Assembly (NCBI GenBank): GCA_903847465.1
Contig: CAINDQ010000096.1
Span: 1 to 32,788 of the forward strand
Source of the DNA: an uncultured Candidatus Peregrinibacteria bacterium
Lineage (GTDB): Bacteria > Patescibacteriota > Gracilibacteria > UBA1369 > LOWO2-01-FULL-3
DNA: 32,788 bases
Reading direction: 5' to 3'
Shown: positions 12,981 to 24,912 of the stretch, piece by piece
Layout: every line of letters begins with the position of its first letter
How positions within the stretch are numbered: position 1 is the first letter of the stretch
The notes under the pieces: model-generated
What the model was told of the DNA's origin: nothing
The model's database searches: none
Seen by the model: the letters and a program-made list of their open reading frames with translations, nothing else
Position numbers and translations under genes: made by a program

Positions 12981-13008
12981 TTGACAACAGAAATCTTTGG
13001 TGTATTTT
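12981..13008 (+). promoter_or_regulatory. candidate promoter for the lysine operon
   Basis: TTGACA, 16-nt spacer, TATTTT; predicted start about 13015. Confidence 0.5.
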
Positions 13009-13027
13009 CTTAGCGTAATCAATTTCC

Positions 13028-13075
13028 ATGCATTTTCAAATCGTAGACAAGAAGTCAAAGAAACTTATCTCCTAG
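13028..13075 (+). CDS. candidate lysine-rich leader peptide MHFQIVDKKSKKLIS
   Basis: ATG CAT TTT CAA ATC GTA GAC AAG AAG TCA AAG AAA CTT ATC TCC TAG; 4 Lys codons in 5, between promoter and terminator-like hairpin, upstream of lysC. Confidence 0.5.
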   Translation: MHFQIVDKKSKKLIS

Positions 13076-13112
13076 CGGAGTAGTTTTCTTGAGACCTCAA
13101 ATCAATAAACTC

Positions 13113-13140
13113 AATCCGCTAAGAAAAGCGGATTTTTCTT
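13113..13140 (+). terminator. intrinsic terminator-like hairpin in the lysC leader (possible attenuator)
   Basis: AATCCGCT-AAGAAA-AGCGGATT followed by TTTCTT (TTTTTCTTT run overlapping the stem end). Confidence 0.75.
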
Positions 13141-13157
13141 TATATAACCCACCAAAA

Positions 13158-14480
13158 ATGACTCTCACAATCACAAAATTCGGAGGAACCTCTATGGGAA
13201 ATGCCTCTGCTATCTCTCAAACAGCTGCCATCATAAAGTCCACCAAAGGAAACAAAGCGGCAGTAGTTTCAGCAACCTCCGGCACAACGGATCAACTCCT
13301 AAATCTCGGAAATTTGGCCTTGAACAAGAAAGATTGGACCAAAGATTTTCAAGAATTAGTGTCAAAGCACGACAAGATAATTAAGGATTTAAAGATAAAA
13401 CTAGATTTGAAATTTTACTGGGAAACTGCCAGAAACATTTTGGAAGGAGTTACTCTGATTGGAGAACTTTCCATCAGCGCAAAGGATCGCCTAAGCACCA
13501 TCGGCGAAAGAACCAGTAGTCAAATATTGGCATCCTTACTGAATAAACAAGGCGTCAAAGCTCTTGCCATGGATGCTTATGAATTCGTTTACACCGACAA
13601 TAATTTTGGAGAAGGAAATGTTGATTTCCGAAAAACGGACAAAGCTATTTTGGAAAAAATTGGTAAAGTCATCAAAGCCAAAACCATTCCAATCATCACC
13701 GGCTTCATCGGCCAATCCGAAGATGGCAGATATATTACTTTGGGACGTGGAGGCAGTGACTATACCGGCGCCATTATTGGCGCAGCCTTGAACGCCACCG
13801 AAGTCCAAATCTGGACAGATGTAGATGGTGTTTTCAATACCGATCCCCGCCTCTGCAAAGAAGCAAAAGTCTTAGACGAATTATCCTTCAACGAAGCTGG
13901 GGAATTGGCTTATTTCGGAGCAAAAGTCATCCATCCAAAAACGATTAAACCAGCCATTCAGAAAAACATTCCGGTAAAGATTCTGAACACTTTTAATCCC
14001 TCTGCAAAAGGTACAGTCATCACCAACAAAGAAACCGATTCTCTAAAATCCGTCACCGCAAAAAAGAACATCAGCATCGTGAATATTTGCTCGGTAGGAA
14101 TGTTCAATGCCCATGGATTCTTATTCAAAATATTCGAAATTTTTGCCAGATACAAAATGGTTGTAGACGTAGTTTCCACTTCCGAAGTCAGTGTCTCCGT
14201 AACCGTCGATAAAGAATTAAACGAAGAATTAATTAAAGAATTAAAGAAATTCTCAACAGTCACCATCTACAAAAACATGGCAATAGTCTGTCTTGTTGGC
14301 AGTGGAATTCGCTCAAACACAAGCGTAATCGGCGAACTCTTCTCTTCCATCAAGAACTATGACGTAAGCATGATTTCCTTAGGCGCTTCCAAAAGAAACA
14401 TCACTTTTTTAGTAAAAGAAGAAGTCGCCACAGAAGTCGTGACCAAAGTTTTCCACACATTTTTTAATCACAAAAAATAA
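13158..14480 (+). CDS. lysC: aspartate kinase
   Basis: MTLTITKFGGTSMGNASA; GRGGSDYTGA; C-terminal ACT-like region. The ORF track's TTG start at 13089 would add a non-conserved N-terminus. Confidence 0.93.
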   Translation: MTLTITKFGGTSMGNASAISQTAAIIKSTKGNKAAVVSATSGTTDQLLNLGNLALNKKDWTKDFQELVSKHDKIIKDLKIKLDLKFYWETARNILEGVTLIGELSISAKDRLSTIGERTSSQILASLLNKQGVKALAMDAYEFVYTDNNFGEGNVDFRKTDKAILEKIGKVIKAKTIPIITGFIGQSEDGRYITLGRGGSDYTGAIIGAALNATEVQIWTDVDGVFNTDPRLCKEAKVLDELSFNEAGELAYFGAKVIHPKTIKPAIQKNIPVKILNTFNPSAKGTVITNKETDSLKSVTAKKNISIVNICSVGMFNAHGFLFKIFEIFARYKMVVDVVSTSEVSVSVTVDKELNEELIKELKKFSTVTIYKNMAIVCLVGSGIRSNTSVIGELFSSIKNYDVSMISLGASKRNITFLVKEEVATEVVTKVFHTFFNHKK

Positions 14481-14493
14481 CCATCCAAATAAT

Positions 14494-15495
14494 ATGAAAT
14501 CCAAAAATATTGTCATCGTAGGAGCAACAGGGGCAGTCGGCAGAGAAATGATTCTTTGTCTCAAAAAATGCCATTTTCCAGTAAAGAATTTGAGGCTCGT
14601 TGCTTCAGAAAAATCAGCAGGCCAAAAACTTGAAACACCATTTGGAAAAATCAAAATCGAGACCATTTCTGAAAAAGTTTTCGCCGAAAGCGACATTGCT
14701 TTATTCTCAGCAGGAAGCGGAATTAGCAAAGAATGGCGAGACTGCGTCGTGAAAAACAATTGTCTCATGATCGACAATTCTTCCGCCTTCAGATACGAAA
14801 AAGATACGCCGTTAGTCGTTCCTCAAATTAACCCAAAAGCCGCCCTCAAACACAAAGGCGTCATCAGTAATCCAAACTGCACCACGGCCATCGCCGCCAT
14901 GGCCCTTTGGCCACTTCACAAAGCTTTCGGACTCAAAAAAGTAATCGTCTCAACTTACCAAGCCACCTCTGGCGCAGGCGCCAAAGGCATGGACGAATTA
15001 CTTCAACAAACCAAGGAACATTTAGCCAACAAAAGACTCACCAAAAACATTTTCGCCCACCAGATCGCTTTCAACATCATCCCCCACATCGACACTTTCG
15101 AAAAAAATGGATATACAAGAGAGGAAATGAAGGTATCATGGGAGACGAAGAAGATCTTTGGAGATGAAAAAATATTGGTTTCTTGTACAGCAGTCAGAAT
15201 CCCGACCTTCAGAGCTCACAGCGAATCCATCGTCATTGAAACCGCAAAACCAATCACTCCTGAGAAAGCTAGAAAAGTACTCGAGAAAGCATCCGGTGTT
15301 GAAATAGTAGACGACACCCTAAGAAACAAGTACCCTATGCCACTAAACGCCTCAAACAAATTCGATGTAGAAGTAGGAAGAATCAGACAGAATCTCGTAT
15401 TTGGAAAAAATGGCTTGGAGTTTTTTGTGAGTGGAGATCAGTTATTGAGAGGCGCCGCTTTGAACGCCGTTGAAATCGCTAAACTATTCATTTAA
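14494..15495 (+). CDS. asd: aspartate-semialdehyde dehydrogenase
   Basis: IVGATGAVGREM, DNSSAFRYE, SNPNCTTAI active-site Cys. Confidence 0.94.
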   Translation: MKSKNIVIVGATGAVGREMILCLKKCHFPVKNLRLVASEKSAGQKLETPFGKIKIETISEKVFAESDIALFSAGSGISKEWRDCVVKNNCLMIDNSSAFRYEKDTPLVVPQINPKAALKHKGVISNPNCTTAIAAMALWPLHKAFGLKKVIVSTYQATSGAGAKGMDELLQQTKEHLANKRLTKNIFAHQIAFNIIPHIDTFEKNGYTREEMKVSWETKKIFGDEKILVSCTAVRIPTFRAHSESIVIETAKPITPEKARKVLEKASGVEIVDDTLRNKYPMPLNASNKFDVEVGRIRQNLVFGKNGLEFFVSGDQLLRGAALNAVEIAKLFI

Positions 15496-15506
15496 TCATT
15501 ATAAAC

Positions 15507-16250
15507 ATGAAAATAGCTTTGATCGGATTTGGTGGAATGGGCAAGACCCTGCACCGAATTGCCCAAGAACGCGGCCATGAAATTTCAATCATCATCGACC
15601 CAAAAGACCCCTCAGCAACTCATAAAACCTTGGTAGAAGCTGATTTGAAAACAGTCGATACAGTCATTGATTTTTCAAGCGCAGAAGCCATTTTAGACAA
15701 TATCAAAACTTGCCACGATTCAGGCACAAATCTAGTTGTCGGCACCACTGGTTGGTACGATAAAGTACCAACAATAAAAGATTCTTTGCAAGATAACGGA
15801 ATCGGATTTCTCTGGTCTTCCAATTTTTCTATCGGCGTAAATTTATACTTTGCCATCGTGGAAAAAGCCGCAAAATTGATCAATTCTTTCGACGAATATG
15901 ACGTTTGGGGCCACGAAATTCACCACTACAACAAAGCTGATTCCCCTTCCGGCACTGCAAAAACTCTCGAGAAAATTCTGCTTGATAATATTGGCAGAAA
16001 AACAGCCGTTGTGGAAGATCGCCTAAACCGCAGAAGAGAAGACAATGAAATTCATTTTTCGTCCGTTAGAGGTGGTTTGGTAAATTTCGGACACACCATC
16101 GGATTTGATTCTCCAGCTGATACAATCACCATTTCTCACAGTGCCAGAAACCGCGATGGATACGCTCTGGGAGCCATAAAAGCCGCTGAGTGGCTACAAG
16201 GTAAAAAAGGCTATTTTGAAATGAAAGATTTCCTAAATTTTAACTCCTAA
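15507..16250 (+). CDS. dapB: 4-hydroxy-tetrahydrodipicolinate reductase
   Basis: IGFGGMGKTLHRIA, VVGTTGW, EIHHYNKADSPSGTAKTL. Confidence 0.94.
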   Translation: MKIALIGFGGMGKTLHRIAQERGHEISIIIDPKDPSATHKTLVEADLKTVDTVIDFSSAEAILDNIKTCHDSGTNLVVGTTGWYDKVPTIKDSLQDNGIGFLWSSNFSIGVNLYFAIVEKAAKLINSFDEYDVWGHEIHHYNKADSPSGTAKTLEKILLDNIGRKTAVVEDRLNRRREDNEIHFSSVRGGLVNFGHTIGFDSPADTITISHSARNRDGYALGAIKAAEWLQGKKGYFEMKDFLNFNS

Positions 16251-16254
16251 AACT

Positions 16255-17139
16255 ATGAAAAGAAAATATGCAGGGACATGGACAGCCTTAATCACTCCCT
16301 TCAAAATTGATGGCAGTGTTGACTACGAAGCCCTCCGAAATTTAGTCAAAAAACAGATCGAAGGAGGTATTACCGGAATAGTTCCTATCGGCACAACAGG
16401 CGAATCTCCAACCATCGAACAAGAAGAAGCAAAGAAAATTTTTGAAACCATAGTAGAAGAAGCCAAAGGCAAAATCATGGTGATGGCTGGCACAGGAAGT
16501 AATTCCACAAAACACGCAGTCGAACATACAAAAATAGCAAAAGAAGCAGGAGTAGACGCTTGCCTCGTTGTTTGCCCTTATTACAACAAACCTACTCAGA
16601 ACGGCTTACGTCTGCATTTCCTGGAAATCGCCAAAGTAGGCCTCCCTGTAATCGTTTATAACATCAAAGGCCGCACCGGAATCAACATGACTACCGATAC
16701 GCTTATGATTCTCGCCGAAAATGAAATGATCGTCGGAGTCAAAGAAGCCAGTGGAGACATCAATCAAATGAAAGAAGTGATTGATCGCAGACCAGAAAAT
16801 TTCACCGTTTTGTCTGGAGATGATGGCTTAACTCTCGAACTAATAAAACTAGGCGGCGATGGCGTTGTGTCAGTCGCTTCAAATGTTATGCCAAAAGAAG
16901 TTTCGGCAATGGTTGAAAACGCTCTAGCCGGAAACACAGATCAGGCTGCCGAAATCAACGAGAACCTAAAATTACTCTTCAAAGATTTATTTATCGAAAC
17001 CAATCCAATTCCAGTAAAATATTGTGCTCACAAAATGGGACTTTGCGAACTTATTTATCGTTTACCAATGTGTCCTCCGTCAAATGAAGCAGGCAATATT
17101 CTCGATGAAACTTTAAAAACTTATAACCTTGTGAACTAA
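16255..17139 (+). CDS. dapA: 4-hydroxy-tetrahydrodipicolinate synthase
   Basis: GIVPIGTTGESPTI, VVCPYYNKPTQNGL, GVKEASGDINQM. Confidence 0.95.
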   Translation: MKRKYAGTWTALITPFKIDGSVDYEALRNLVKKQIEGGITGIVPIGTTGESPTIEQEEAKKIFETIVEEAKGKIMVMAGTGSNSTKHAVEHTKIAKEAGVDACLVVCPYYNKPTQNGLRLHFLEIAKVGLPVIVYNIKGRTGINMTTDTLMILAENEMIVGVKEASGDINQMKEVIDRRPENFTVLSGDDGLTLELIKLGGDGVVSVASNVMPKEVSAMVENALAGNTDQAAEINENLKLLFKDLFIETNPIPVKYCAHKMGLCELIYRLPMCPPSNEAGNILDETLKTYNLVN

Positions 17140-18380
17140 TGAACGAAGAAGTTTTGTATTTTCCAAAAGAAGACATCGTCAAAGCAACTGATCGATTTCA
17201 GACACCTTTCTTTTTGTATGAAGAAAAAAAACTACGCTCAAATTGTCAGATTTTCAGAGATTCCTTCAAGAAATACTTTCCTGATTTTTGGCCGCTGTAT
17301 GCCATAAAAGCAAACAACAACCCAGAAATACTTAAAATAATTTCATCCGAAGGATTCGGCGGAGATTGTTCCAGTGAATCAGAAGCTTGGATCTGTGAAA
17401 AATTAGGAATCGAAACAATGTATACCGGAAACTACACCACCAAAGAAGAGTTTGAATTCGTAAAAAACAAATGTCTGATTTTGAATCTCGATGACTTAAG
17501 CATGCTAGGTGCAGTCGCAGAACTCGGCATGCCGGAGACCTTATCTTTCAGAATAAATCCAGGTGTCGGAAAAGGTTTCAACAAAGATAACGTCTTTGCT
17601 GGACCAGACGCAAAATACGGAATTCCATTCGAAAAGGCTTATGAAGCCTATCAAAAAGCCAGAGATTTAGGAGTGAAACATTTCGGAATTCACATGATGA
17701 CAGGCACCAATGTGCCATTGGAAGAAAGTAATTATTTCGCCAACATCGTCGAAAAACTATTCGACATTATCGCAGATATAAAAGAAAAATCCGGCATCGA
17801 AATTGAATTTATGAATATCGGCGGAGGCTTTGGCGTTCCCTATCGCCCGGAAGAAAAAAGCCTCGACATGGACTTTGTGGCAAAAAGTATTCGCGAAGTT
17901 TTCGATAAAAAATGTAAAGAATTGAACTTGAAAGAACCAAGACTGCTTGCAGAACCTGGCAGATGGATCTCTGCAAACGCCGGATGGTTAATCGGGAAAG
18001 TTCACATCATCAAAGATTCTTACAAAAAATTCGTAGGCGTAGATTTCAGTAGTAACGACATGCCACGCCCCGCTATTTACGGAGCATATCATCACGTTTC
18101 AGTAATCAAAACCAAAGAAACAATTGAAAAAGAAACCGTCTCCATCGTTGGCAGAATCTGCGAAAACAGTGATCAGTTAGCCCGCGACAGAGAACTTCCA
18201 AAATTAGATATCGGCGATATTGTAGTCATTCACAATTGCGGAGGACACGCCTACACCATGGGCCATAATTACAATGGCCGTCTTCGTCGCGCCGAATATT
18301 TGATCGAAGAAAACGGCAATTTCCGAAAAATCCGCCGAGCCGAAACTATCGAAGATTTATACAAAACTTGCGAAATATAA
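17139..18380 (+). CDS. lysA: diaminopimelate decarboxylase
   Basis: YAIKANNNPEIL PLP-Lys motif, NIGGGFGVPY, EPGRW; overlaps the dapA stop. Confidence 0.9.
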   Translation: MNEEVLYFPKEDIVKATDRFQTPFFLYEEKKLRSNCQIFRDSFKKYFPDFWPLYAIKANNNPEILKIISSEGFGGDCSSESEAWICEKLGIETMYTGNYTTKEEFEFVKNKCLILNLDDLSMLGAVAELGMPETLSFRINPGVGKGFNKDNVFAGPDAKYGIPFEKAYEAYQKARDLGVKHFGIHMMTGTNVPLEESNYFANIVEKLFDIIADIKEKSGIEIEFMNIGGGFGVPYRPEEKSLDMDFVAKSIREVFDKKCKELNLKEPRLLAEPGRWISANAGWLIGKVHIIKDSYKKFVGVDFSSNDMPRPAIYGAYHHVSVIKTKETIEKETVSIVGRICENSDQLARDRELPKLDIGDIVVIHNCGGHAYTMGHNYNGRLRRAEYLIEENGNFRKIRRAETIEDLYKTCEI

Positions 18381-18391
18381 TAATAAAATTT

Positions 18392-19588
18392 ATGGATTTC
18401 AAAGCTTCTCAAAAATTAGAAAATTTGGCCCCATACGCCTTCAAAGAAATCAATGACCGTGTCACCGCCTTGAAAGAAAAAGGCATCACTCCAATCGATT
18501 TCGGAGTTGGTGATCCTTCTGATCCCACTCCTAATTTTGTGATAGAAGCCCTAAACAAAGGCGCTATCAAACATGCCAAAAGCGGCTATCCCAGCTATAT
18601 CGGCCTAAAAGAATTCCGCGAAGCCGCCGCCCAATATATGCAAAGAAGATTCAATGTTTCCCTAAATCCAGAAACCGAAATCACCTCAAACATCGGCTCC
18701 AAAGAAGCCATCTTCAATTTCCCACAAGCTTTCCTAGAGCAAGACGACTACGTCATAATCCCCTCTCCGGGGTATCCACCAATGAAAACCGGCACCACTT
18801 TTGCTGGAGGAAAATGTTACTTCACACCTCTTCTTGAAAAAAATAATTTCCTGATCGATTTCGAAAGCATCCCAAAAGAAATAGCAGAGAAAGCCAAAAT
18901 CATCTGGTTGAATTATCCAAATTCTCCAACAGGAGCAGTCGCCACCAAAGAATATTACAAAAAATTAATCGATTGGGCCCACACCCACAACATCATCATC
19001 GCCGCAGACGAAGGCTGTTATATCGACATCTACTTCGACGAAAAACCGCTCTCCATTCTCGAAGTAGCCAAAGAAGGCATCGTCGCCTTTTATTCTCTCA
19101 GCAAAAGAAACAACATGACTGGATATCGAGTTGGATTCGTTTGTGGAGATGAAAAATTAATCAGCATTTTCAAAAGACTGAAAACAAATATCGATTCCGG
19201 CACTCCAAATTTCATCCAAGAAGCCGCCATCGCCGCCCTCGACAACGACACTCACTGCCAAGAAATGTGCGCATCCTACAGCCAAAAAGCAGACATTCTC
19301 CTTGAAGCTCTAAAACAAATCGGCCTCGAAACTCACAAACCAAAAGCCACCTTCTACCTCTGGCAAAAAGTCCCAACAGGGATGTCAGATATCGAATTTG
19401 CCAAAAGACTTCTCTCTCCAGAAATCGGAATCGTTGTTACTCCTGGCAGTCTCATCTCCGATAAATGTGATGACGGAATCAACCCTGGCGAAAATTATGT
19501 AAGATTTGCATTGGTACCATCCATAGAAGAAGTCAAGTTGGCTTCCCAGCTGCTAATTGACAACCAAAAAAAGATAGAGCTACAATAA
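18392..19588 (+). CDS. dapL: class I aminotransferase, LL-diaminopimelate aminotransferase-like
   Basis: FGVGDPSDPTPNFVIEAL, LNYPNSPTGA, SLSKRNNMTGYRVGF PLP motif; last gene of the DAP operon. Substrate inferred from context. Confidence 0.78.
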   Translation: MDFKASQKLENLAPYAFKEINDRVTALKEKGITPIDFGVGDPSDPTPNFVIEALNKGAIKHAKSGYPSYIGLKEFREAAAQYMQRRFNVSLNPETEITSNIGSKEAIFNFPQAFLEQDDYVIIPSPGYPPMKTGTTFAGGKCYFTPLLEKNNFLIDFESIPKEIAEKAKIIWLNYPNSPTGAVATKEYYKKLIDWAHTHNIIIAADEGCYIDIYFDEKPLSILEVAKEGIVAFYSLSKRNNMTGYRVGFVCGDEKLISIFKRLKTNIDSGTPNFIQEAAIAALDNDTHCQEMCASYSQKADILLEALKQIGLETHKPKATFYLWQKVPTGMSDIEFAKRLLSPEIGIVVTPGSLISDKCDDGINPGENYVRFALVPSIEEVKLASQLLIDNQKKIELQ

Positions 19589-20057: not shown

Positions 20058-21713
20058 CTACTGCACGCCATCTAGATAACAATTCTCACAATAAATTACT
20101 TCCAATCTTTTTGGAGAATAACTGGTTTTTATATTTTCCCCACACTTTGCACATTTCCTATCCCATAGGAAACCGGGATTTCGCAAACCAATCCTTTCCG
20201 CATATCTACAATCCGGACATTTTCTAGGCACAGAAATATTCATCTTCTTATAAAACTTGAGCTCGTTCGGTTGAATTTTGTAATTTTTTCCACATTCGCC
20301 ACAGGCCAAAGTCTCCATACAAAATTTCTCTTCAATCGTATTTGTATCATCTGGAATTTCGCATGTGGCAGGCATATATTCCTTGTTCTCTTTTTGTTTC
20401 CAACGGAATCCTTTTGAAATAGCTTCTTGTTCCGTCATCGGAAAATGATCCTTTGCCGCAGTTTCATTGTAAGCAAATTGTGAATTTTCTTTTGGAAAAA
20501 ATTTCCCCCATTCTGTACTCAGCCCGCCGGAGGAGGGCACCTTTTTCATATGAGCAACTATCTTTGCCCGAAGAACTTTATATTCCTCCTCTGAATATTT
20601 CTTATTAAAAATACTGAAATTCGCATTTTTTAATCCCACGCATCCGAACAAATCTCTCGAATTAAAACAAAGATCATTATAGAAACTATCATGACTGTGC
20701 GACACAAAAGTATTGAACGCACAATTGTTCAATCGCTCTACTCCAAGCCCTTCGTAGACCCATTCGCTATACCCCATTCCATACACATCACAACAATCAT
20801 GACTATTAAAAATCCAAGTACAATAAGAACAATCCTGCACTTCATATGAATCGAAACACTGATGGCAATTCTTTCCATTGATCAAATAATCTCCCGTACA
20901 ATTTTCCGTATTGAAATTTCGACTCGCACGATGCGGCAAATCTTTTGTCCATTGCAAAAAGTAATCTCGCGCATTCACAAATTTGCTATACTTGTTAAAT
21001 TCCAAAACAGCCTTCTTTGCCTCATATTCCTCTTTCGTACTTTGTTTGTTCATAATCCAGTATTGCTTATTCCTGAGCCCAAAACAGCCAATACAATCAT
21101 GGCAACCGATACAGTCATAACAGAACATTAAGTCGTTAGAATTCTGACAACTCTGACAACCAATACAGTTATAAAGTTTCGTGCTATCGATACAATCGTA
21201 GCAAAGTTCACAATGTTGCAAATAACTGCCATCATAAGAACTGCGCACCCTATTTGAATGAGTCAGATACATCGAATCCTCGCACTCCTCAATCACCACA
21301 CTTAGATAACAATTCTTACTGTCATAAGCTTGTTGGCAATATTCACTATTCGTTGGATTTACATTAAACAATCCGATTCTTGGCACTCTTTTCTGCAACT
21401 CCGCAAACTGTTCAAAGAACCCACGACTGAAATCAAAATCCATTCCATACTCAAAACCGTCATGTTTATCACTCCACCATTCTTCCGCTGAATAAACAGG
21501 AAAAACCGCATCTTCCGAATAAATCGAAACTATTTGTTTTCCAGATAAACTACTTTTCCTTTTATAAAAAGTCCTTTCGTTACGAAAACAAAGTTTGTTT
21601 TGCAGCCTACAATCAGGACAAATTTCAGGATTTGGCGCATCAAACTTTTTATAATAAGCCTCATCCTCTTTTCTGATTTCAAATTGTTTCTCGCAATTTT
21701 TACAATTAACCAT
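20058..21713 (-). CDS. Cys-rich protein, paralog of 23257..24912 (CPR 'caib/baif'-type annotation)
   Basis: 551 aa, about 39 Cys by hand count; Zn-ribbon-like CKNC..CPDC and CGEC..CPDC pairs, CxxC runs, repeated LRNKxYxxxNKQxSxEEYE motif. Confidence 0.8.
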   Translation of the reverse strand: MVNCKNCEKQFEIRKEDEAYYKKFDAPNPEICPDCRLQNKLCFRNERTFYKRKSSLSGKQIVSIYSEDAVFPVYSAEEWWSDKHDGFEYGMDFDFSRGFFEQFAELQKRVPRIGLFNVNPTNSEYCQQAYDSKNCYLSVVIEECEDSMYLTHSNRVRSSYDGSYLQHCELCYDCIDSTKLYNCIGCQSCQNSNDLMFCYDCIGCHDCIGCFGLRNKQYWIMNKQSTKEEYEAKKAVLEFNKYSKFVNARDYFLQWTKDLPHRASRNFNTENCTGDYLINGKNCHQCFDSYEVQDCSYCTWIFNSHDCCDVYGMGYSEWVYEGLGVERLNNCAFNTFVSHSHDSFYNDLCFNSRDLFGCVGLKNANFSIFNKKYSEEEYKVLRAKIVAHMKKVPSSGGLSTEWGKFFPKENSQFAYNETAAKDHFPMTEQEAISKGFRWKQKENKEYMPATCEIPDDTNTIEEKFCMETLACGECGKNYKIQPNELKFYKKMNISVPRKCPDCRYAERIGLRNPGFLWDRKCAKCGENIKTSYSPKRLEVIYCENCYLDGVQ

Positions 21714-21829: not shown

Positions 21830-23254
21830 ATGACCATCCAAGAATTAACCCAAACTCTAAATTCTCATCAACTCGCTTATGTGAATTTGGAGCTGAAAAA
21901 TCCACAGAATGGCGAATATATGTTGTGTGCTTTTCATTTAATTCCAGGCGGAACTCTTAATATTCTCCAAGCAGCATGTGAAGTTTCCGCAGAATCATCT
22001 ACTGGTACAAATTTCTTGGTAAACACCGAAACTCCTTTTTCAAAAGAGATGAACGCTTTAGTTTACCAAGTTGATTTGGAAAAAAGCATCGTTTATATCG
22101 CCTACCCAACTAGACTTTTTGATCGTAATGGAAATATTCAGAATATTCTTACCTACATTGTCGGTAACGTTTTGGGCATGAAAGAAATCAACGCTTTGAA
22201 ATTACTCGATGTTTGGTTTCCACCAGCAATGCTAGAACAATATGACGGCCCTTCTTATACCATCGACGACATGAGAAAATATCTAAATGTTTATGGCAGA
22301 CCTATTTTGGGCACTATCATCAAACCAAAGATGGGACTTACTTCTGCTGAATATGCTGAAGTGTGTTATGACTTCTGGACCGGTGGTGGAGATTTCGTAA
22401 AGAATGATGAACCACAAGCAGATCAGGATTTCTGCCCATACGACAAAATGGTTTTACACGTAAAAGAAGCCATGGATAAATCCGTAAAGGAAACTGGCAA
22501 AAAGAAAGTTCACTCTTTCAATGTCTCCGCAGCAGATTACGAGACGATGATTAAAAGATGTGAAATGATTAAAAATGCCGGATTCGAACCAGGCAGTTAC
22601 GCTTTCCTGATTGACGGAACAACCGCTGGTTGGATGGCCGTCCAAACTCTTCGCCGAAAATATCCAGACGTATTCATCCATTTTCATAGAGCAGGTCACG
22701 GAGCTTTCACCAGAAAAGAAAATCCAATTGGTTTCACCGTATTAATTCTTTCCAAATTCGCCAGACTTGCTGGTGCTTCCGGTATCCACACAGGAACTGC
22801 AGGCGTTGGAAAAATGGCTGGCAGTCCAGAAGATGATATCACCGCAGCTCATGGCATTTTGTATTTCGCCTCTCAAGGACATATCTTTCACCAATCTTGG
22901 GCAACTATTCCTGAAAAAGATGAAAACGCCGAAGGTCTCACCAAAGAATCTGCCGCAAATCATGAAATTTTGCATGACGACAGTTGGAGAGGAATCAAAA
23001 AATGCTGCCCAATTATTTCAGGCGGCTTAAATCCTACCTTGCTAAAACCATTTATAGACGTGATGGGAAACACCGACTTCATCACCACTATGGGAGCTGG
23101 TTGCCATGCTCATCCAAAGGGAACAAAAGCAGGAGCAACAGCCTTAGTTCAATCTTGCGAAGCTTATTTGAAAGGAATGGATATCCACGAATACGCCAAA
23201 GATCACGTTGAACTAGCCGAAGCAATCGAATTCTTCGAGAAAAAGAAGAAGTAG
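21830..23254 (+). CDS. rbcL: ribulose-bisphosphate carboxylase, form II/III-like
   Basis: IIKPKMGL, GGDFVKNDEPQ (carbamylated Lys motif), HFHRAGHGAFTR, HTGTAGVGKMAG (loop 6 Lys), ISGGLNP. Confidence 0.95.
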   Translation: MTIQELTQTLNSHQLAYVNLELKNPQNGEYMLCAFHLIPGGTLNILQAACEVSAESSTGTNFLVNTETPFSKEMNALVYQVDLEKSIVYIAYPTRLFDRNGNIQNILTYIVGNVLGMKEINALKLLDVWFPPAMLEQYDGPSYTIDDMRKYLNVYGRPILGTIIKPKMGLTSAEYAEVCYDFWTGGGDFVKNDEPQADQDFCPYDKMVLHVKEAMDKSVKETGKKKVHSFNVSAADYETMIKRCEMIKNAGFEPGSYAFLIDGTTAGWMAVQTLRRKYPDVFIHFHRAGHGAFTRKENPIGFTVLILSKFARLAGASGIHTGTAGVGKMAGSPEDDITAAHGILYFASQGHIFHQSWATIPEKDENAEGLTKESAANHEILHDDSWRGIKKCCPIISGGLNPTLLKPFIDVMGNTDFITTMGAGCHAHPKGTKAGATALVQSCEAYLKGMDIHEYAKDHVELAEAIEFFEKKKK

Positions 23255-23256
23255 GA

Positions 23257-24912
23257 TTACTTTATAAATTTCAGATATTCCTCTTCAGACAAAATCCTTC
23301 CGTCGTACTCTTTTGGCCAATTTGTCTGAATTTTCTCGCCTGATTTTGCACAAACTGCATCACGAAGTTCACCATTAAAAGGCATCTGCGCAAAATTATC
23401 CTGCAGACGATGAACATAGTAATCATGAGGCAATGGCCCTTTTATTTTCTTAGCAAACTCAATATCACTTTTGGTAACCTGAAAAGATCTCTTATATTTT
23501 TCATCCCAAAAAATCTGCTCGGTTAGCCATTTTTCTTTTTCAGGACTTAAGTCATTATAAGTATCTGGAATCATCTCGATTTCAGCAGTTTTAACATTTT
23601 TTCTTTCCACCGGTCCTCCCTCTCTAAAGCCAAAATCCTCCGGCTTATCAATCGGAAAATGAAATCCGGAAAAACTTTCCTCATAAGGATTCGGAGCAAA
23701 GTAACCAGGGAAAAACTTCCCCCATTCGCCAGCATTCTTCATCTGTAAAACTATTTTTTCACGCAAAATTTCATATTCTTTCTCAGAGTATTGTTTATTG
23801 AAAATACAATATTTTTTATTCACCAAACCACAACAACCAAAACAATAATGGCAATTTTGGAGATAAGCTGAGTATTCCACAAATCTACAGTGGGCAACGC
23901 TAAAAGAGAAAATCGCATAATAAGAAAAAACCGGCAGAGAAGTCATAAAAGTCAGCTCACCACCAACCGTTCCCAGAGAATCTAAAGTTGCCTTAGCGTC
24001 AGGTCCGGAAAAACAATCGTTAGCACAATTTTCATGTTTTGAAAGCAGATAGCAATTCTCACAGTTCTTGCATTGTCTAATAAAATTACCAGAAGAATCT
24101 TCACACTGCTCAATCTGCAAAGCCCTATGCCATGCCGTATCTAACATCATTTTACTAAAAAATTCTTTTGCCTTCTCGTAAGCTTTTCTGGATGTAAAAT
24201 CCCACATCGCCTTCTGTTCCTCAAATTCTTCTTTTGAAAGCTGTTTGTTCCCAAAGCAATAACTCTTATTGCGAAGATTAAAACAAAAAAGACAATTACT
24301 ACAATCACGACAATCATACATAAAGGCGGAATCACTCACCATTTTGCAATTCAATAAAAATAAACTATTAAAACAGTTCGCAGAATTTATCAGATCAAAA
24401 CATAATTCTGAATAATAAGCGGAAACACCATAGTGAGCATTCTTACAATGATCGCATTCATAACAATAGGTACAATCCTCACAATATTGACCTGAATGGC
24501 AAAGGTAACAATTTTTACTGTAATACCAATCATCGGTATATTCGCAATTATGATTATGACTCTCAAAAACATGTGGTATTGGACATTTTTGAAACAATTC
24601 CCAAGCTTGCTCAAAAAAACCTCTAGAAGGATCGAAATCTCTCGATGGCGGATTACTATTTTCGAACCATTCTTTCCTTTTCCAGACAGGATAAACACAA
24701 TCCGGACGGAAAACAGAAATGATCTGCTCGCCAGTTTTGTCACATTTTCTCTTATGCAAATTCCACTGCGGCCAAAAAGCCCCTAACTCTCGGAATCTAT
24801 ATTTCGGCGTAACATTCGGCAAACTATCACCAAACCCAAACTTCTCTCGAAGCTTCATTTCAAGCTCAGAAACCTCAAATTTTTGACCCGAAATACTACA
24901 AATACTTTGCAT
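23257..24912 (-). CDS. Cys-rich protein, paralog of 20058..21713
   Basis: 551 aa; shares SRGFFEQ, NLRNKSYCFGNKQLSKEEFEEQK and CGLVNKKYCIFNKQYSEKEYEILREKI with its paralog. Confidence 0.8.
   Translation of the reverse strand: MQSICSISGQKFEVSELEMKLREKFGFGDSLPNVTPKYRFRELGAFWPQWNLHKRKCDKTGEQIISVFRPDCVYPVWKRKEWFENSNPPSRDFDPSRGFFEQAWELFQKCPIPHVFESHNHNCEYTDDWYYSKNCYLCHSGQYCEDCTYCYECDHCKNAHYGVSAYYSELCFDLINSANCFNSLFLLNCKMVSDSAFMYDCRDCSNCLFCFNLRNKSYCFGNKQLSKEEFEEQKAMWDFTSRKAYEKAKEFFSKMMLDTAWHRALQIEQCEDSSGNFIRQCKNCENCYLLSKHENCANDCFSGPDAKATLDSLGTVGGELTFMTSLPVFSYYAIFSFSVAHCRFVEYSAYLQNCHYCFGCCGLVNKKYCIFNKQYSEKEYEILREKIVLQMKNAGEWGKFFPGYFAPNPYEESFSGFHFPIDKPEDFGFREGGPVERKNVKTAEIEMIPDTYNDLSPEKEKWLTEQIFWDEKYKRSFQVTKSDIEFAKKIKGPLPHDYYVHRLQDNFAQMPFNGELRDAVCAKSGEKIQTNWPKEYDGRILSEEEYLKFIK

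Follow-up and report, generated by a model that had tools for sequence, protein, structure and literature searches.

The region ahead of lysC in a 32,788-nt stretch of DNA from an uncultured Candidatus Peregrinibacteria bacterium (contig CAINDQ010000096.1 of assembly GCA_903847465.1; the whole stretch is referred to here as the window) very probably encodes a ribosome-mediated transcription attenuator of the trp/his/thr type, which would sense lysine via charged tRNA-Lys. The first-pass annotation of this DNA had proposed a lysine leader-peptide attenuator at this site, and the sequences and coordinates on which it relied (TTGACA/TATTTT, leader open reading frame (ORF), Lys codons, TAGCGGA/TCCGCTA, terminator and the lysC ATG) were all found to be exact. 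The features of a trp-type attenuator occur here together: a run of Lys codons, an intrinsic terminator before the first gene, a competing antiterminator, a 1:2 protector hairpin and the geometry for a ribosome stall.

All elements lie on the forward strand. The promoter (12981..13008) consists of TTGACA at 12981-12986, a 16-nt spacer and TATTTT ending at 13008, a match which on its own is non-significant (1 found, 1.6 expected). The leader peptide ORF MHFQIVDKKSKKLIS* (13028..13075) has 15 codons with a KKxKK run, is not preceded by a Shine-Dalgarno (SD) sequence and has equivalents before lysC in relatives. Its regulatory Lys codons AAG AAG TCA AAG AAA (13049..13063) belong to segment 1, while the stop codon TAG (13073..13075) is inside segment B, the antiterminator 5' strand TAGCGGA (13073..13079), with a spacing of 12 nt from the last Lys codon. 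Segment B is complementary to TCCGCTA of segment C (13115..13121) in the 5' arm of the terminator. When this leader was shuffled with dinucleotides preserved, 0.1% of the shuffles contained a short ORF with at least four Lys in six codons (0-1.9% for relatives), and the 7-nt B:C match gave a shuffle p of 0.0035.

The minimum-energy fold of the leader RNA (-27.3 kcal/mol; z -2.67, with 2 of 200 dinucleotide shuffles equal or better) contains two hairpins. The 1:2 protector (13051..13098, -14.6 kcal/mol) pairs the Lys codons with TTTTCTT and CTCC with GGAG, and the 3:4 intrinsic terminator (13113..13142, -10.8 kcal/mol) is made up of AATCCGCT-loop-AGCGGATT, with its stem at 13113-13134, and a T-rich tail. 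The pairing of Lys codons with TTTTCTT had been anticipated in the first-pass annotation and is borne out by this fold; AAGAAAA (13121-13127), which had been put forward as its competitor, is the terminator loop and is not needed in that role. When the Lys codons were blocked and the terminator 3' arm was not yet made, the consensus fold was the 2:3 antiterminator GCGGA..GTTCTT....AAGAAC..TCCGC (13073..13121, -14.8 kcal/mol), which joins B:C pairing to a middle helix, GTTCTT...AAGAAC, conserved in relatives between B and C. The three hairpins are mutually exclusive and similar in energy, with predicted values across all leaders of -4 to -21 (1:2), -9 to -20 (2:3) and -7 to -21 kcal/mol (3:4). 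The trp/his-type logic of these alternatives, as first proposed, is visible in the folds of most leaders; the 1:2 protector is weak in leaders L013, L014 and L067.

Conservation and geometry of lysC leaders

A strict DNA pattern recovered only four near relatives and was too strict, and covariance models were therefore used. Model R1 was built from six well-aligned leaders with the others realigned to it, MAFFT having misaligned the terminators of L005-L009; model R2 was built from 14 leaders, and the terminator arms of L102, L113 and L203 were set by hand. Leaders L010 and L012 are truncated by contig ends, and L016, which has a possible weak Lys ORF (KKPGKVR), was excluded from the counts. 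Weak model hits L106-L112, L114, L115, L166 and L167 were rejected: they are either unrelated sequence or ordinary terminators after Lys-rich C-termini.

At least 13 further genomes, one of them in another family of the class, have a leader of this design before lysC. The orthologous leaders, which the first-pass annotation had named as a check, do carry a Lys-codon ORF, with covariation. Their peptides are MFHSVDKKKAKKLYLLAE, MMMQASVTKKGKKTKLSAE, MHMDFSRTTKKIKKPCSWRS, MARKELKKTKKMLPAG, MERKELKKTKKMLPAE, MIRKEFKKTKKMLPAG, MINIVSENKKLKKIQF, MNFIVNTKKAKKFISKVE, MQIFLSLSKKSSKKTTLRLERANSR, MNIILAVIFGAKKKIAPTRQ, MHVVSQIKKAKKSTS, MNLPSQLKKNKKAKKTLKKGRFDA and MFVLSQLKKTKKSAS, nearly all with KKxKK-type runs, and each ORF ends close to the strand complementary to the downstream terminator 5' arm. 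In most of these genomes a TTGACA/TTGACT-type promoter ends approximately 20-30 nt upstream of the leader ATG, so that the promoter lies upstream of the ORF at a conserved place, another point that had been left for checking. Most of the leaders head lysC-asd-dapB(-dapA-lysA-aminotransferase); that of L011 heads lysC-lysA and those of L013 and L067 head lysC-dapB-dapA.

Peptide, stop position and hairpin sequence differ between leaders and B:C complementarity is kept. Combined over 14 leaders, the shuffle tests for this complementarity gave a Fisher p of ~9e-15, and when B and C arms were permuted among nine divergent leaders the total of the own pairs was reached in 0 of 20,000 permutations. 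B/C pairs which change together include TAGCGGA/TCCGCTA, AGGTGG/CCGCCT, CGAGGCAA/TTGCCTCG, GCTTAGAGAG/CTCTCTAAGC and GGGAAGGTT/AACCTTCCT. For the 1:2 and 3:4 helices, in an alignment which was fitted to the structure, 91% of cells were paired and 12 of 19 pairs had changed on both sides (0 of 500 shuffles).

Counted from the first base of the final Lys codon, segment B begins after 11-16 nt in 29 of 30 leaders, a spacing expected in 16% on the basis of shuffles; L014 was excluded from this test. In the exception, L002, the stem reaches further upstream, and if its core TAGCGGA is counted the spacing is 13 nt. The edge of a ribosome lies at P-site +15, and with a given codon in the A site the ribosome ends at about +12 or +13. 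B would thus be the RNA immediately beyond a ribosome that has the last Lys codon in its A site. The distance between the last Lys codon and the stop, on the other hand, ranges from 12 to 39 nt among clear lysC-type leaders; in 15 of 16 lysC-type leaders B would still fall within the footprint (-18 to +12) of a ribosome at the stop. A fixed B spacing with a variable stop distance is the pattern that would be expected if the position of the ribosome is the switch.

Lys codons of the leaders are 53 AAG to 7 AAA, compared with 168 AAG to 655 AAA (20% AAG) in the window genes, and the genome to which the window belongs has both tRNA-Lys(UUU) and tRNA-Lys(CUU). The 1:2 pairing, avoidance of slippery A-runs or selective charging could each explain this bias.

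Proposed mechanism and alternatives

From the elements, their conservation, covariation and spacing, all of which are present in the sequence, we infer translation of the ORF, stalling at lysine shortage and a change in readthrough. RNA polymerase would start near 13015 and a ribosome would translate MHFQIVDKKSKKLIS. On reaching the stop codon this ribosome would mask strand B, C would pair with the terminator 3' arm and transcription would end at ~13142. When lysine is short, the ribosome would stall on AAG AAG xxx AAG AAA with its 3' edge immediately before B, so that B and TTTTCTT could base-pair with C and the flank of C ahead of synthesis of the terminator 3' arm; with the antiterminator formed, polymerase would continue into lysC-asd-dapB-dapA-lysA-aminotransferase. 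If there were no translation, the Lys codons would pair with TTTTCTT, B would be held in that hairpin and the terminator would form.

Several observations weigh against this reading. Many lysC genes of the class have no leader, and in L008 (G027:C19) the lysC promoter is present and the leader ORF and terminator stem have apparently been deleted, through either genuine loss of this control in nature or a fault in the assembly. The assemblies are metagenomic. Leader L014 (MKSTIKLANKIKNNSILLRG) is a weak case, Lys-poor and off-spacing, and in L013 segment B would be covered only partly by a ribosome at the stop. In several leaders of the lysyl-tRNA synthetase (LysRS) type described below the stop is 33-42 nt past the last Lys codon, and masking at the stop would therefore be partial or absent there. 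The leader rows are also related to each other, which makes the p-values given above too small and overstates their independence.

A stall could instead be due to the basic nascent peptide itself (KKxKK within the exit tunnel), or to an arrest peptide which senses free lysine, rather than to uncharged tRNA-Lys at the Lys codons. The KKxKK pattern is indeed kept at the peptide level, and basic stretches are able to slow ribosomes. A peptide would, however, have no need of the 53:7 AAG bias, which is a property of codons or RNA; residues outside the Lys run are unconserved, the position of B matches the 3' edge of a ribosome whose A site holds a Lys codon, arrest in excess lysine would have the wrong sign for biosynthetic genes, and the design is common to Thr and Trp leaders. 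We consider such a stall improbable, and the AAG bias and B spacing would favour codon stalling over TnaC/SecM-type arrest. Far less probable still is a lysine riboswitch, T-box or other ligand-binding RNA with an incidental ORF. The L-box does control lysine genes in many bacteria (PMC1262725), but no Rfam family, hence neither RF00168 nor the T-box RF00230, reached threshold in the window, and none of 359 genomes of the class gave a hit to RF00168, whereas the four control genomes were positive, so that the riboswitch check suggested by the first-pass annotation came out in favour of attenuation. The leader is, moreover, only ~130 nt long and its sequence is unconserved outside the Lys codons and helices. 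That a constitutive terminator has come to lie behind a promoter and a meaningless ORF by chance is scarcely credible either: AT-rich DNA does yield short Lys-rich ORFs, and most weak model hits were ordinary terminators after Lys-rich C-termini, yet the leaders recur at the heads of lysine operons in many genera, with covariation and fixed spacing.

Lysine operons are the textbook case of the L-box riboswitch. With RF00168 the leader described here has in common that lysC and lysine genes are (here by prediction) controlled through premature termination; it differs in having no aptamer. Its nearest relatives in kind are the trp, his, thr, ilv, leu and phe attenuators (Rfam RF00513 Trp_leader, RF00514 His_leader, RF00506 Thr_leader), with which it shares a peptide rich in the amino acid of the pathway, a stop in or near segment 2, competing 1:2, 2:3 and 3:4 helices, an intrinsic terminator and a biosynthetic operon. 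Unlike these it concerns lysine, occurs in Patescibacteria and lacks a Shine-Dalgarno sequence, and there was no match to RF00513, RF00514 or RF00506 in the window. In a survey of Actinobacteria, lysine was assigned to the L-box and His, Thr and Phe to attenuators (PMC1262725), and according to a 2010 paper the only groups with demonstrated leader-peptide systems, before its own hisS case in Firmicutes, were Proteobacteria and Actinobacteria (PMC2965389). In that case His leader peptides and T-boxes were described upstream of hisS genes (PMC2965389); aminoacyl-tRNA synthetase genes are likewise under putative attenuation here, but the Lys leader heads class I LysRS operons. The nearest candidate in the literature is SEP5 of Sinorhizobium meliloti, a short translated 5'-UTR ORF with 6 Thr and 3 Lys codons which was suggested as a possible leader peptide; it sits before a gene called aspartate dehydrogenase in that work and is conserved only in Sinorhizobium (PMC10117765). 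SEP5 differs from the Lys leader in its mixed Thr/Lys run and its phylum, and its leader role is only a suggestion. In the openly readable papers searched we found neither a description of a lysine leader-peptide attenuator nor, one paper containing both terms aside, any work that links Patescibacteria to attenuator leader peptides. The logic of the proposed mechanism is classical; its lysine specificity and lineage appear to be new as far as could be checked.

Lysine, tryptophan and threonine leaders beyond lysC

Searches with model R2 covered 384 genomes from the phylum and 211 from another class. Hits beyond lysC were individually weak (E ~1e-5 to 0.2) and were supported by ORF start and stop, spacing, B:C match and downstream gene, all unscored by the model. 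One Lys leader, MTYVFSAKKSNKKNL, is immediately upstream of a class I LysRS gene (TIGR00467), and approximately nine further Lys leaders occur in the same family, some of them 0.3-1.2 kb before LysRS; at most LysRS loci of this family (f104) no leader was detected within 1.5 kb. Lys leader MSLTNQKTKKEKKGLLRGRG precedes a dapA-like gene (below the family cut-off) and leaders MRHFATKTKQMKKTPLMGR and MSWNLSNITKKTTKTAFQRREFS precede aspartokinase-like genes, that behind MSWNLSNITKKTTKTAFQRREFS being named by eye. The peptides of the LysRS-type leaders L183, L191, L200 and L204 all end, beyond the Lys run, in an RGFV(L/F) tail. The sequence of this tail holds the 1:2 partner (GTCTTGG), and the tail itself might have its own role.

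The genes behind L113, L172, L173 and L174 were either identified by eye or given no name. Leader L113 (G303:C63, ~1480-1600) is a Lys leader, MQLFTSKKEMKKTTLTGR, with promoter and terminator ahead of a small gene without assigned function, and L173 and L174 (MSTHCFITKKSKKKPQAGRCVRGK, MHSTTPFIEKESKKNSFGGGVCRR) are ahead of unnamed, possibly new lysine-related genes.

The genome from which the window comes also has a Trp leader, MSLKRITNLATWWRSFISWRF, with a terminator, between a TrpR-like gene and trpB (L116, G000:C25:4139-6500, ~476-590). In L117 (G022:C97, ~480-590) a short ORF containing WW and a terminator are found between TrpR-like and radical-SAM-type genes; this may be a Trp attenuator, and the gene it would control is an unexpected one. 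In the class, thrA-type genes are preceded by Thr leaders. The Thr/Ile leader peptides MFMSRLVTITTTTITTITS, MNQKSPLKVTIIISTTTSI, MSTIQSTTTIITTTTTGSLMR and MKFVTMITTMTKITK (L015, L083, L089 and L091), with terminators, are upstream of aspartokinase genes, which are mostly long frames of the aspartokinase-homoserine dehydrogenase type. Among four Thr leaders the spacing is 12 and 13 in two; in the other two, picked automatically, it is 8 and 19.

We think it likely that attenuation through Lys, Trp and Thr leaders is a general form of amino-acid control which replaces riboswitches in Patescibacteria, that Lys leaders control both lysine synthesis and class I LysRS across several classes, and that use of the rarer Lys codon, AAG, may adjust the sensitivity of the switch through selective charging. 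If conserved in this way, a lysine leader-peptide attenuator would close a gap in the series of amino-acid attenuators, and it is very probable that control by coupled transcription and translation exists in the Candidate Phyla Radiation, where genomes are small and regulation is almost unknown. The leaders offer a direct test of such coupling in a lineage whose genes are mostly without Shine-Dalgarno sequences, and as a natural set they are suited to testing the rule that the antiterminator begins at the end of the stalled ribosome.

Operon and genome setting

The six-gene diaminopimelate/lysine operon proposed in the first-pass annotation, with the order lysC-asd-dapB-dapA-lysA-aminotransferase, agrees with the family models, and all of its genes are for lysine synthesis. 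All are on the forward strand. The aspartate kinase gene lysC (13158..14480, ATG at 13158) scored above the cut-off of TIGR00657; its best model is lysine-sensitive aspartokinase 3, with a score slightly under the cut-off of that model, and its nearest relatives are from Candidatus Peribacteria/Peregrinibacteria assemblies. It is followed by asd (aspartate-semialdehyde dehydrogenase, 14494..15495, TIGR01296), dapB (15507..16250, TIGR00036), dapA (16255..17139, TIGR00674) and lysA (diaminopimelate decarboxylase, 17139..18380, TIGR01048). The last gene is a dapL/dapC-like aminotransferase (18368..19588) whose best models, LL-diaminopimelate aminotransferase, were below their cut-offs and whose TTG start, as listed, is uncertain.

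An SD-like tetramer precedes 2 of the 25 window genes. The lack of one before the leader ORF, which had been raised as a caveat, is real; it says nothing about the ORF because window genes are mostly without SD. Many gene starts in the window are preceded by a TAAC/TAACC-like stretch instead. Further downstream the window contains a gene for the RuBisCO large chain (21830-23254), with a minus-strand ORF of 551 aa on either side of it (20058-21713 and 23257-24912). The first of these ORFs is cysteine-rich and gave a weak match to a treble-clef zinc finger.
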